Shown: one piece after another, positions 52,091-56,384 of the stretch | How positions within the stretch are numbered: position 1 is the stretch's first letter | Layout of the letters: each line of letters starts with the position of its first letter | Assembly: GCA_002529455.1 (NCBI GenBank) | Contig: NYMS01000048.1 | Location: forward strand, 496,001 to 560,000 | Source of the DNA: Glycomyces fuscus | GTDB taxonomy: Bacteria > Actinomycetota > Actinomycetes > Streptosporangiales > Streptosporangiaceae | DNA: 64,000 nucleotides | Direction: 5' to 3' | Notes under the pieces: generated by a model | What the model was told of the DNA's origin: nothing | What the model saw: the letters and a program-made list of their open reading frames with translations, nothing else | The model's database searches: none | Translations under genes and position numbers: made by a program

Positions 52091-52296
52091 CGCTGTGTTC
52101 CGGTGGTGCCCGGCGGAGGCAGCGGGTGTGGCGCCGGGCACGGGACCGGGACGGCGGAAACAGCTTCTTGTCGGAAAAGGGGTCTTTTCCACGGTCGGTT
52201 CGGATATCGTCGGCGCACGCCTGCGCCCCGCACGCACGCGCCCGTCCAGCGCGGTTCCCGCTCCACCGCTCCCTGCGCATCCCCCGGAGCCCTGTC

Positions 52297-52770
52297 ATGT
52301 CCCTGCCCCCGCGACCCCCCGCCGCCGGCATGTCCACCGGCGGCAAGATCGGCCTCGGATGCCTGGGGTGCTTCGGCGCCCTGGTGTTCACCGCCATCAT
52401 CGGCTCCTGCGCCAGCGCACTGGCCGGGGGCGGCTCCGACCAGGCGGCGCCTCCGCCCCCGGCCGCGACGGTGACCGCGACCGTGTCCGAGACGGTGGAA
52501 CCGACCGCCACCGCCACCGCCACCGAGACCGAGGAGGTCGAGGTGGAGGTCACGGTCACCGCCACGGAGACCGTCACGGAGACGGTGACCGAGCGCCCGG
52601 ACAGCGGCGGCAGCGGTGGAGGCGGTACCGGCGGTGGTGGGGGCGGCGCCCCGGCCTACTACGAGAACTGCGACGCGGCGCGCGCCGCGGGTGCGGCGCC
52701 CGTGCGCCGTGGCGACCCGGGTTACGGCTCCCACCTGGACCGCGACGGCGACGGCGTCGGCTGCGAGTGA
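52297..52770 (+). CDS. exported Excalibur-domain protein
   Basis: The 157-aa product starts at ATG 52297 with CCGGAG 8 nt upstream. One N-terminal helix near residues 20-45 contains cysteines (LGCLGCFGA, GSCASA). A linker of Thr/Glu/Val repeats (TVTATVSETVEPTATATATE) leads to the C-terminal Excalibur domain: YYENCDAARAAG, then DRDGDGVGCE, the calcium-binding loop. Excalibur domains are extracellular and small. It may be an anchored wall protein. Confidence 0.8.
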   Translation: MSLPPRPPAAGMSTGGKIGLGCLGCFGALVFTAIIGSCASALAGGGSDQAAPPPPAATVTATVSETVEPTATATATETEEVEVEVTVTATETVTETVTERPDSGGSGGGGTGGGGGGAPAYYENCDAARAAGAAPVRRGDPGYGSHLDRDGDGVGCE

Positions 52771-52780
52771 CGCGGGTCGC

Positions 52781-54736
52781 CTACCGCGGCTCGGGCGCCT
52801 CCTCGCGCCCGGGGCCGTCCGCGCGTTGGAGGGCCTTCTCCAGGGCCCGCCTGGTGACGGCGGCCTCCACCTGGTCGACGGCGTGGGCGGTCATCTCGTC
52901 GCCGTACCCGGGCAGCGCCCGGCTGCCCGCGTACTCGCGGCACAGGCGCACGCCCTCGGCGGTGGAGGGGCCGTAGGAGGCGTCGACGCCCGACTTGCCC
53001 AGGGCGTCGCCGAAGCCCGCCCGTGTGATCCTGAGCTGGAGCAGCTTGACCGCTTCTCCCTCACTGCCGATGCGCAGCCCGAGCATGTCGTGTACCTCCG
53101 TGATCTCCCCGGGGGGCTGTTCGAACGTGCCGTCGCGGACGAGGGCGTAGGCCTTGTCGCCCGGGCACGAGGTGGAGACGAAGTCGCGGTGTCCGAGCAC
53201 CGTTCCGGCGATCGAGGTGTCGGGCTCCATCAGCCACTGGCGGAGCGCGCGCACCGCGTTGACCTGCTCCGGGGTGATGACATCCGTGGGACCGGTGGCC
53301 AGGGTCGCCGAGTAGTGGGAGGTGTTGCCGCCCGGCTGCGCGGCCTGGGTCCTGTACAGCCCCCGGCCCTCGATGACGTAGCCGTGCGCACAGCACATGA
53401 ACGAGTTGCCGGTGAAGTACACCGTGCCACCGCGCCTGGCCAGCCACGTGGAGTTGGGCGTGCGCACGCACCAGATCCGCCCCTCGTGGGGCTCGCGCGT
53501 GACGGTGAGCTCCGCCTTCCCGGCCGCCGCCGTCCGGGGAGCGACGTGGGCCCTGCGGCGCAGTTCCACCTCCCACGTGGGGCAGGGGGTCGAGGAGGTG
53601 GGGGGCCGACGGCGCAGGGAGGTCGCGTACCCGGCCAGGATCGCGGCGAACTGGAACGCCTCGGCGGCTGCCCGGTCCTTCTGGCCCAGGGCCTGGGAGT
53701 CGTTCGTGCGGCTGCCGTGGCCGCCCCCCGACAGCGACGCCTCGATGAACAGGGCGAGTTGCGCCCGGGTCAGCGAGCGCAGGAAGGCGTGTGTGGGCAC
53801 CCGCCCGGGAGCGTGTTCGAGCAGGACCCGGCCGGCGTCGGAGGACAGGTGGAACCAGGCCGTCCCGCGGTCACGGGCCTCGCGCCAGCGCGGGACGCCG
53901 TCCGTGCTCCTCCCCGCCCGGGGGAGGTGCTCGCAGGGCGGCCCGAAGACGCCGTGCAGCGCGTCGCGGATCCTGGCGGTGCGGTCGGGGTCGCCCACCG
54001 CCGACTGGTGGATGGCCGCACCCGTGCCGGGCGCACGGCTCCCGCCCCGTCGTTCGACGCGGCCCCCGGTCCCGGTCCAGAACCAGGCCACCAGTTCCAC
54101 GAGGTGGTCGGGCCACTTGGGCTCCGCGGGCAGGTGCGCGCAGGGAGCGGCCAGGGGGATGCGGTCCCCGTGGGCGAGCGTGTCCGTGGTGGCCCACAGG
54201 CGTTCGCGGCCGCTGACGCCGCGCGCGGAGCGCCCGGTCCGCGCCCGGGTCCCGTCGGCGTCCTTCCCGCGCTCGGTACCCGTGCGCCGGTGATGGCGCT
54301 CCACGGGCCAGCGGTGGCCGGGGGTGGTCAGCGACGAGTGCTCGCGTCCCTCCATCCGGACGAGTTCGCGTCGCATGGCGGGGAAGACGAGGACGTCCTG
54401 GAGGGGTTGCCACTCCGACAGCCCCGTGCCGTGGTCGAGGGTGAGGACGACGTCCCCCGGCGCGACCTGCTGGAAGGTGCGCCACCCGTCCTCGGTGAGG
54501 ATCTCCGTGGCTTCGTCCACGCAGTATCCGATGTCGGCCCAGCCCCTGGAGGGGCCGGTATGGAAGGAGCGGGTGTCACGCCAGTACCGGAGGCAGGCCG
54601 AGTGGTTCTTCGCGGCCAGCCCCTGGTCGGCGCTGTCGTAGTGGATGACCAGTCCGGATCGGGGATTGGCCCGGGTCGCGGGCGAGGAACCCCATCCCAG
54701 ATCGGACCGAGAGACGTACTTGCTCGGTCGAGGCAT
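52781..54736 (-). CDS. peptidoglycan amidase (amidase_2/PGRP type) interrupted by an intein
   Basis: The open frame of 651 codons encodes an N-acetylmuramoyl-L-alanine amidase split by an intein. Before it, residues 1-71 contain LVIHYDS (zinc ligand H32) and SRGWADIGY. After it, 445-651 continue with SFMCCAHGYVIEGRGLY, GHRDFVSTSCPGD (zinc ligands H516 and C524) and a peptidoglycan-binding domain (LRIGSEGEAVKLLQ, YGPSTAEGV). Joining Y71 to S445 restores the family motif DIGYxF...EGRG and gives 278 aa. The start is ATG 54736. There is no evident signal peptide, so a secretion route is unclear. An IR GTGTC-aaggc-GACAC lies at 54746-54760. Confidence 0.9.
   Translation of the reverse strand: MPRPSKYVSRSDLGWGSSPATRANPRSGLVIHYDSADQGLAAKNHSACLRYWRDTRSFHTGPSRGWADIGYCVDEATEILTEDGWRTFQQVAPGDVVLTLDHGTGLSEWQPLQDVLVFPAMRRELVRMEGREHSSLTTPGHRWPVERHHRRTGTERGKDADGTRARTGRSARGVSGRERLWATTDTLAHGDRIPLAAPCAHLPAEPKWPDHLVELVAWFWTGTGGRVERRGGSRAPGTGAAIHQSAVGDPDRTARIRDALHGVFGPPCEHLPRAGRSTDGVPRWREARDRGTAWFHLSSDAGRVLLEHAPGRVPTHAFLRSLTRAQLALFIEASLSGGGHGSRTNDSQALGQKDRAAAEAFQFAAILAGYATSLRRRPPTSSTPCPTWEVELRRRAHVAPRTAAAGKAELTVTREPHEGRIWCVRTPNSTWLARRGGTVYFTGNSFMCCAHGYVIEGRGLYRTQAAQPGGNTSHYSATLATGPTDVITPEQVNAVRALRQWLMEPDTSIAGTVLGHRDFVSTSCPGDKAYALVRDGTFEQPPGEITEVHDMLGLRIGSEGEAVKLLQLRITRAGFGDALGKSGVDASYGPSTAEGVRLCREYAGSRALPGYGDEMTAHAVDQVEAAVTRRALEKALQRADGPGREEAPEPR
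53405..54523 (-). mobile_element. in-frame intein, 373 residues
   Basis: It runs from C72 to N444 of the host protein. Block A is CVDEATEILTEDGW, block B is LTTPGHRWPV (T138, H141), block F is GRIWCVRTPNSTWLARRGG and block G is VYFTGN followed by S(+1). The penultimate residue is Gly instead of His, as in some phage and actinobacterial inteins. The central part (about 205-375) looks like a LAGLIDADG endonuclease: HLVELVAWFW and LTRAQLALFIEASL. The acidic catalytic positions appear replaced (WTGTGG, SLSGGG), so homing activity is probably lost while splicing is likely kept. Confidence 0.88.
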
Positions 54737-54890
54737 GGACCCATTGTGTCAAGGCGACACTCCGAAGGGTAGGGGGTTGGTTACTTTGGGTAGAAAAGTC
54801 CTTGTTGTCGGCCACCAGGTGTGGCGGAGCCCCCGTGCCCGGTGCCCTCTGCGGCACGATGGTGGCCGATCCGAACCCGGGAGGTCACCA

Positions 54891-56384
54891 GTGCGCTCCG
54901 CACACACCGCGAACGCCGTCCGCGAGGCCGAGCACGCGCTCATGGCGCGCCTGCCCGACGGGGTCCTCATGCGCAGGGCCGCGACCGGGCTCGCCGTCGA
55001 GTGCGCGCGGCTCCTGCCCCGCGTGTACGGGGCGCGGATCGTCCTCATGGTCGGCGGCGGCGACAACGGCGGCGACGCGCTGTACGCGGGCGCCGCGCTG
55101 GCCGCCCGCGGCGCGGCCGTACGTGCCCTGATCGCCGGGCGGCACGCCCACGAGGGCGGGATCGCCGCGCTGAGGGCGGCGGGCGGGCGGGTCCGGTGGT
55201 TCACCGACTCCCCGGCCGACGAGGGCGACCTGTTCGGGGCCGACCTCGTCGTGGACGGGCTCGTGGGCATCGGCGGAAGCGGCGGCCTGCGCAGGCCGCA
55301 CTCCACCCTGGCCCTGCTCGCGGCCGACGCGCCCGCCCCCGTGGTCGCCGTCGACCTGCCCAGCGGGGTGGACGCCGACACCGGCGAGGTGGCCGGGCAC
55401 GCCGTCCGCGCCGACGTCACCGTCACCTTCGGCACCCACAAACCGGGCCTGTTCGTCGATCCGGGGGCCGAGCGCGCGGGCCGGGTCCACCTCGTGGACA
55501 TCGGGCTGTACCCCGAGCTGCCCGGACCCGACCTGGTCCGCCCTCAGGCCGTGGACATCGCCTCGCTCCTGCCGGCCGCCGGGGCGGAGGCGGACAAGTA
55601 CCGGCGGGGCGTCCTCGCCGTCCGGGCGGGCTCCGACCGCTACCGGGGCGCCGCCGTCCTGTGCGTGGGCGGAGCGCTGCGCACCGGGGTCGGCATGGTG
55701 CGCTACGGGGGCGGGCCGACCGTGGTCGACCAGGTGCTCGCCCACTGGCCGGAGACCGTCGCCAGCCTCCTCGACCCGCAGAACAGCACCGACCTGTCGC
55801 CCGGGCGGGTGTCCGCCGTCGTCGTCGGCTCCGGCCGGGGCACGCATCCGGCCAACGCCGACGAGCTCCGCGCGGTCCTGGACAGCGACGTCCCGGTGCT
55901 GGTGGACGCCGACGGGCTCACCCTGCTCACCGGGGACTGGGGCGAACCGCTGTGCGAGCTGCTCCGGGAGCGGGAGGCGCACACGCTGCTGACGCCGCAC
56001 GCCGGGGAGCTGGCCCGGATGCTGGGGGCCGACCGGGAGGACGTCGAGGCCCGGCGTCTGGAGCACGTGGCCCGCGCCCGCGACCGCTTCGGGTGCACGG
56101 TCCTGCTCAAGGGCTCGACCACGGTGATCGCGCACCCGGGCGCGCCGGTGGTCGCCAACCCGACCGGAACGCCGCTGCTGGCCACGGCGGGGACCGGGGA
56201 CGTGCTCTCGGGGGTGGCCGGTGCGCTCCTGGCCGCCGGGCTGCCCGCCCGGGAGGCGGCGACGTGCGGTGCCTACCTGCACGGACGCGCCGCCTCGCTG
56301 GCCCGGGGCGGCGCCCCGATCAGCGCGTCCGACCTGCTGGAGGGACTGCCGCTCGCGATCGCGGAGGTCCGCGGGGCGGCCTGA
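54891..56384 (+). CDS. nnrD: bifunctional NAD(P)H-hydrate epimerase / dehydratase
   Basis: It repairs damaged NAD(P)H hydrates. The 497-aa product starts at GTG 54891 with GGGAGG about 7 nt upstream. Residues 1-210 are the epimerase (VGGGDNGGDALYAG, DLPSGVDADTGEVAG). Residues 220-497 are the ADP-dependent dehydratase of the ribokinase-like fold (TPHAGELARML, LLKGSTTVI, ATAGTGDVLSGVAGAL). Usually found near alr or tsaE in actinomycetes; here it stands alone, divergent from the intein-bearing amidase. Confidence 0.93.
   Translation: MRSAHTANAVREAEHALMARLPDGVLMRRAATGLAVECARLLPRVYGARIVLMVGGGDNGGDALYAGAALAARGAAVRALIAGRHAHEGGIAALRAAGGRVRWFTDSPADEGDLFGADLVVDGLVGIGGSGGLRRPHSTLALLAADAPAPVVAVDLPSGVDADTGEVAGHAVRADVTVTFGTHKPGLFVDPGAERAGRVHLVDIGLYPELPGPDLVRPQAVDIASLLPAAGAEADKYRRGVLAVRAGSDRYRGAAVLCVGGALRTGVGMVRYGGGPTVVDQVLAHWPETVASLLDPQNSTDLSPGRVSAVVVGSGRGTHPANADELRAVLDSDVPVLVDADGLTLLTGDWGEPLCELLREREAHTLLTPHAGELARMLGADREDVEARRLEHVARARDRFGCTVLLKGSTTVIAHPGAPVVANPTGTPLLATAGTGDVLSGVAGALLAAGLPAREAATCGAYLHGRAASLARGGAPISASDLLEGLPLAIAEVRGAA

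Follow-up and report, generated by a model that had tools for sequence, protein, structure and literature searches.

Class 3 inteins carry Trp at position 12 of block B (B:12), Cys at position 4 of block F (F:4) and Thr at position 5 of block G (G:5), a set referred to here as W-C-T, and usually have Ser or Thr as the first residue after the intein (+1) (PMC5222942). By definition they have no N-terminal nucleophile (PMC3196547; PMC7891396), and 1701 inteins without Cys at position 1 were selected in PMC7891396. Intein hosts bind nucleic acids in all cases in mycobacteriophage and in 84.9% of cases in bacteria (PMC5050341), and none of 224 mycobacteriophage endolysins had an intein (PMC3314691). 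Here we describe an intein that combines the W-C-T set with the class 1 residue Cys1 and that interrupts a peptidoglycan amidase gene of Glycomyces fuscus. The gene lies in the window, by which we mean the whole 64,000-nucleotide stretch analysed (assembly GCA_002529455.1, contig NYMS01000048.1, positions 496,001 to 560,000, forward strand). In our explanation, which we regard as very likely, the intein sits in a phage-type amidase that is now resident on the chromosome, was spread by homing, and has a dead endonuclease in the window copy.

The open reading frame (ORF) at 52781-54736(-) encodes 651 residues: an N-extein (residues 1-71, ending in GWADIGY), an insert of 373 residues (72-444, CVDE..VYFTGN; 53405-54523) and a C-extein (445-651, beginning with SFMCC). 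The spliced product would have 278 residues. With the insert in place, PGRP-LB matches the ORF in two weak pieces (E-value 0.0051). Without it, the exteins give a single alignment over residues 7-160, running through RGWADIGY/SF (the slash marks the insertion site; E-value 6.7e-10), and the Amidase_2 score rises from 19.5 to 28.3 bits, above the Pfam cut-off of 26. The spliced product also has the candidate His, His and Cys ligands of Amidase_2/PGRP enzymes (H32, H516 and C524), C524 being the candidate third zinc ligand; from knowledge of the family, we take these three to be the zinc ligands and Y71 to be the conserved active-site Tyr. The insert splits the zinc ligands apart. The exteins match phage endolysins (PHROG 1493, E-value 6.6e-40), and by this match the host enzyme is of the phage-endolysin type. 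The C-extein tail resembles PG_binding_1, scoring under the Pfam cut-off. In many orthologs (L019-L053), the match to the window protein ends at about residue 540-551, and the tail past the amidase domain varies between relatives.

A first-pass annotation of this DNA had proposed an intein inside a zinc amidase. Its insert coordinates are exact, the residues H32, Y71, S445 and H516 are as it gave them, and the alignment of the spliced extein with an amidase (PGRP-LB), a comparison of the kind it had suggested, is continuous over the junction. The proposal itself is upheld by the rebuilt amidase match, the invariant splicing residues and the empty orthologs described below. It had overlooked that the host is of the phage-endolysin type and that the endonuclease is dead, as well as the relatives in phages and the W-C-T set.

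The structure of the insert, modelled from 21 relatives (predicted local distance difference test score 83.8), is predicted to be a Hint fold with a LAGLIDADG domain and aligns over its whole length with structures of inteins that contain a homing endonuclease, a comparison read for matches only and never for absences; the TliVMA intein is one such match (Z-score 23.3, root-mean-square deviation (r.m.s.d.) 4.0, 301 aligned residues). The insert has the general features of an intein, with a nucleophile at position 1, TxxH in block B, a C-terminal Asn and Cys, Ser or Thr at +1, and is very probably a cis-splicing intein. In the mechanism that we propose, it is located directly after the conserved active-site Tyr of an Amidase_2/PGRP endolysin homolog, now a resident chromosomal gene; the Hint domain would fold within the 651-residue precursor, the N-extein would be handed to Ser+1, Asn373 would cyclise, and the 278-residue zinc amidase would be released. 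The element would be akin to actinophage terminase and portal inteins, and homing would have spread it among amidases, phage endolysins included.

A motif search of a set of larger loci, whose pattern demanded Cys1 and TGN followed by Ser, Thr or Cys and left the positions in blocks B and F free, found 78 distinct amidase copies, of which 59 are occupied and 19 are empty. Cys1, Thr B:7, His B:10, Trp B:12, Cys F:4, Thr G:5, Gly G:6 and Asn G:7 are identical in all 59 occupied copies, in which the intein is always preceded by Tyr and followed by Ser (47 copies) or Thr (12). The 19 distinct empty copies have the exact, uninterrupted junction, which reads DIGY/SF in orthologs without the insert. 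Eleven loci failed the pattern: nine are amidases without an intein and two are exceptions, L141 and L164. At least five more occupied genomes lie outside the 59-copy set (G263, G247, G146, G197 and G168), and in the first four the ends of the intein are the same as within it.

The window intein has a nucleophile at position 1, as class 1 inteins do (Cys, Ser or Thr) and class 3 inteins do not; because Cys1 is present, we did not assign it to class 3. In eight phage inteins from named records, Cys1, Cys F:4 and TGN occur in all eight and Trp B:12 in seven. In a viral-contig set (39 of 42 loci checked, 35 of the 39 distinct), searched with patterns that did not require Cys1, an aligned Cys1 was present in 38 of 39 loci, and HxW, Cys F:4 and TGN in all 39; the remaining locus, L209, has a Cys just ahead of the match. 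The +1 residue in these loci is Ser (26), Thr (11) or Cys (2). Since phage inteins also have Cys1 with W-C-T, the mixture belongs to a phage intein family and not to the window alone.

As first nucleophile, we lean towards Cys352 (F:4, the class 3 route) over Cys1 (the class 1 route). A profile from which the endonuclease was omitted found the class 3 AceL NrdHF intein as its best sequence match, a weak one (E-value 0.022). The competing possibility, which we take seriously but consider the less probable, is class 1 chemistry, in which Cys1 would form the first thioester and W-C-T would be incidental or structural. It would account for Cys1 in all 59 amidase copies, where the pattern required it, and in 38 of 39 viral loci, where it was not required, and it agrees with the definition of class 3 by the missing N-terminal nucleophile (PMC3196547; PMC7891396). 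However, both the complete W-C-T set and a Ser or Thr in the +1 position are typical of class 3 (PMC5222942), and the nearest solved mini-intein by predicted structure is the class 3 AceL NrdHF intein (Z-score 18.9, r.m.s.d. 1.8, 144 aligned residues). It is also conceivable, if improbable, that selection maintains both Cys1 and Cys F:4 across this large phage-borne family, whose hosts here include amidases, terminases and genes of the portal and tail region; the two would serve in successive thioesters or as a redox latch. If so, the family would count as a hybrid class. It would also be a surviving relative of the phage intein, equipped with a nucleophile, from which class 3 is postulated to descend. 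Natural inteins that keep both Cys residues make it possible to test directly what divides class 1 from class 3 chemistry.

The endonuclease has decayed to different degrees over the 59 copies: both catalytic acids are present in 18 (one of them, L147, doubtful), one in 13 and none in 28. In the window copy, neither catalytic-acid column is acidic, although an active LAGLIDADG enzyme would need an acid in each of its two motifs; to judge by these residues, the enzyme is dead. Intein lengths range from 373 down to 258 residues, the endonuclease region shrinking by deletion while the splicing residues are invariant. With its endonuclease dead, the window intein presumably persists because splicing would be needed for a working amidase.

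The intein is in the amidase gene of 28 of 40 genomes of the genus and absent from that of the other 12 (counted from the match table). Across the order, 61 of 249 genomes match it, 26 from the genus, all in the amidase by match extents, and 35 from elsewhere. For 31 of the latter, the flanking sequence was read; three more are identical with the contigs of L035, L037 and L045, and G168 was judged by its match alone. Of the 35, 33 have the intein inside an amidase at the site GWxDIGY/S or T. The amidase site is therefore occupied in 59 of 249 genomes (61 minus L164 and L141). The first-pass annotation had called the host uncommon; this agrees with the published surveys cited above but not with the frequency of inteins at this site.

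Four loci deserve separate mention. L164 (4200-7367(+), genome G202) is an intein relative in a bacterial genome, 41% identical in the best piece, whose host gene may be terminase-like, as judged by eye (DWF/C..TGN/CGAGGSSQG). L141 (5044-6297(+), genome G156) is a stand-alone relative of 418 residues without exteins, with Ser for Cys1, Ala for the final Asn and both endonuclease motifs intact (TEGHI and GDGHG); it looks like a copy that no longer splices and may be an endonuclease set free. Cys1 is also missing from the intein-like protein L062 (1501-3468(+)) on the Streptomyces plasmid NZ_CP108246.1, where the annotated gene begins at intein residue 2 and has no terminal Asn. In L049 (5809-7735(+), Nocardiopsis alkaliphila), the occupied amidase is in two overlapping frames near codon 53, which may reflect a broken gene or a sequencing error.

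In a quick tree, the amidase inteins form one clade relative to phage large terminase (TerL) and portal inteins (Shimodaira-Hasegawa-like approximate likelihood ratio test 100). In one group of amidases, the C-extein is 27-41% identical to that of the window and the intein 54-60% where aligned in one piece. The branches between the two extein groups are 2.9 and 2.0 changes per column and the matching intein-tree branches about 0.1, in quick trees that both come with long-branch warnings. These values agree with an intein that has moved horizontally from one old amidase family to another.

The window amidase has as neighbours an NAD(P)H-hydrate epimerase, NUDIX, TetR, Excalibur and DUF proteins (Table 1). 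In a Pfam scan, none of eight neighbours is phage-like, two of them having no match at all, and a prophage location was ruled out on this count. We probed 93 loci for the window's neighbours. They are present on both sides in 24 loci (17 occupied and 7 empty), on one side in 4 and on neither in 65, many of the last being other genera, paralogs or phages. The 17 two-sided occupied loci are 15 distinct ones after removal of two duplicates, or 16 with the window. Two-sided synteny of occupied and empty loci indicates that, in part of the genus, the gene is a resident of the chromosome and the intein is polymorphic, present in some loci and absent from others. The first-pass description of a chromosomal cell-wall hydrolase is thus right as to location, but the enzyme is of the phage-endolysin type. 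In the extein tree (77 rows; L049 was too short and was left out), the nearest relatives of the window, L064 (93% identical) and L065, are empty, and at least 12 gains or losses are required, six of them forced by well-supported branches.

Table 1 Features of the intein-containing amidase gene and its neighbours (positions in the window)
Feature	Position	Strand	Evidence or remark
N-extein, 71 aa; candidate zinc ligand H32, active-site Tyr71 at splice junction	54524..54736	(-)	PGRP-LB match continuous once insert removed
Intein, 373 aa	53405..54523	(-)	Sequence, model, structure match, residue conservation
Intein Cys1 codon (block A:1)	54521..54523	(-)	C in 59/59 copies; search pattern required C
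Block B: Thr67 (B:7), His70 (B:10), Trp72 (B:12, class 3 signature)	54308..54325	(-)	Identical in 59/59
LAGLIDADG homing endonuclease region, about intein residues 107-335, approximate limits	53519..54205	(-)	Acids lost: FWTGTGG, SGGGH
Cys352 codon (block F:4, class 3 signature)	53468..53470	(-)	C in 59/59
Block G: Thr371 (G:5), Gly372 (G:6), Asn373 (G:7)	53405..53413	(-)	Identical in 59/59; TGN required by search pattern
C-extein, 207 aa and stop; Ser+1, candidate zinc ligands H516, C524	52781..53404	(-)	
Neighbour, NAD(P)H-hydrate epimerase/dehydratase; real start probably after 54645	54645..56384	(+)	YjeF_N and Carb_kinase; conserved next to amidase
Neighbour, Excalibur-domain protein	52126..52770	(+)	Pfam scan

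A phage copy carries a trace of the kind expected from homing. L052 is a viral contig in which a holin-like gene adjoins the endolysin and the intein has both catalytic acids; two neighbour proteins are 97-98% identical to those of phage P1312, whose endolysin is empty. Between about -132 and +69 around the insertion site, L052 and P1312 are 81% identical (163 of 201 bases), compared with 94.5% (536 of 567) over the rest of the gene (Fisher p 8.5e-8, a value that is optimistic because the stretch was picked after the identity profile). In a comparison with four empty sister phages, the C side is clean (0 to +100: L052 80-82% identical to each, the empties 98-99% among themselves) and the N side weaker (-100 to 0: 83-90% and 91-98%). 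A second dip at about -900 also occurs among the empty phages and is unrelated. Within the tract, L052 is 94% and 87% identical to the Thermobifida fusca locus L037 and P1312 86% and 75%, whereas out of the tract both are 59-70% identical to L037. The tract region is better conserved in general, and the resemblance of L052 to L037 exceeds that. When the comparison is made with the Thermobifida-like loci L036 and L150, L052 comes closer than P1312 only on the C side. Over the first 80 codons of the intein, the DNA of L052 and that of L037 are 96% identical. This tract fits what co-conversion in homing would leave and suggests that phage endolysins and chromosomal amidases exchange sequence, in one direction or the other. 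L052 derives from a metagenome, and the assembly of that sample also yielded an empty sister, L212, so an assembly chimera, which would be no evidence of homing, has to be considered; we think it unlikely, as L052 and L212 differ by a few percent along nearly all of the flanks and the divergent tract is a short one with the insertion site at its centre.

Several observations weigh against our explanation. Pfam Hint_2, the kind of intein model that the first-pass annotation had proposed to search, matches the insert at 14.5 bits, below its cut-off of 28.4; with the endonuclease left out of the query, 7 of 12 relatives match Hint_2 with E-values up to 0.1. Because of such sub-threshold scores, the amidase-intein family is probably overlooked by standard annotation. 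Gly, not His, precedes the final Asn, an unusual but workable arrangement, since the mycobacteriophage RDF intein splices fully with its native Gly and worse with His (PMC5050341). No divergence spike was found at the window site relative to the empty L064 and L065; recent homing into the window copy was rejected for this reason, and either the intein is older there or L064 and L065 lost theirs. Finally, ratios of non-synonymous to synonymous substitution rates (dN/dS) in 14 occupied pairs are 0.11-0.54 for the splicing region and 0.12-0.84 for the endonuclease region, the latter being higher in 11 of 14 pairs, which are not independent. This weakly supports selection on the splicing part and shows no clean tie to the state of the endonuclease: of two exceptions with intact acids, L146-L167 has a value of 0.12 and L089-L090 one of 0.62. 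With exceptions on both sides, we dropped dN/dS as evidence.

L141, standing alone with its terminal splice residues lost, tells us that dead copies exist. We nevertheless think it extremely unlikely that the window insert is an ordinary domain, or an intein that has died and, for want of splicing, keeps the amidase from working: the splicing residues are invariant even though deletions in the endonuclease region shorten the intein to as little as 258 residues, syntenic orthologs have no insert, and the insert splits the zinc ligands. An ordinary structural domain, which the first-pass annotation had named as a finding that would overturn its reading, was ruled out by the clean empty sites and the constant splicing residues.

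The first-pass annotation had also suggested that splicing acts as a switch for hydrolase activity. Conditional splicing, for example redox-gated through Cys1 and Cys352, would then control wall hydrolysis; for a DnaB intein of mycobacteria, a role in sensing oxidative stress has been described (PMC6195587). Nothing found in our analysis favours conditionality, however; the argument would fit any active-site intein, and orthologs free of the intein at the same chromosomal place mean that a switch would be dispensable. We consider it very unlikely. The site is suited to the study of intein spread and decay: one site in one gene family presents all intein life stages, within one genus and across a bacterial order, from empty alleles and both-acid copies to dead endonucleases and inteins down to 258 residues.

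Among known systems, the class 3 AceL NrdHF, Mycobacterium smegmatis DnaB-1 and M. chimaera DnaB-1 inteins share with the window intein the W-C-T set (M-C-T in AceL), the usual Ser or Thr at +1 and the Hint fold (PMC7891396, PMC7664689, PMC5222942). They differ in having no Cys1 and in their helicase or reductase hosts, and the best profile match to class 3 inteins is the weak one at an E-value of 0.022. Gordonia phage TerL and portal inteins and the mycobacteriophage Pinkcreek gp135 intein are 34-37% identical over the whole window intein and share Cys1, HxW, Cys F:4 and TGN with it; their host genes are others and their endonuclease motifs look intact. The endolysin of Thermobifida phage P1312 is homologous to the window extein (63% identity) but phage-borne and empty at the site. 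Among the titles and abstract starts of the literature matches listed, we found no intein in an endolysin or amidase, nor, among these matches, a description of the host's endolysin identity, the breadth, the synteny or the tract. The closest counterpart is the T. fusca intein (L037), which has the same insertion site, Cys1 with W-C-T and 59% intein identity to that of the window, and differs in genus, in length (341 versus 373 residues) and in its endonuclease decay. The L037 amidase is followed by a homolog of P1312_042, a phage gene annotated in its record as similar to Tfu_2915; by this gene order, the amidase is probably Tfu_2914. Tori and Perler (J Bacteriol 2011) reportedly studied the Tfu2914 intein of T. 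fusca because it combines motifs of class 1 with those of class 3. The window intein is thus the ortholog of a T. fusca intein that has probably been described, and it is not new in kind.
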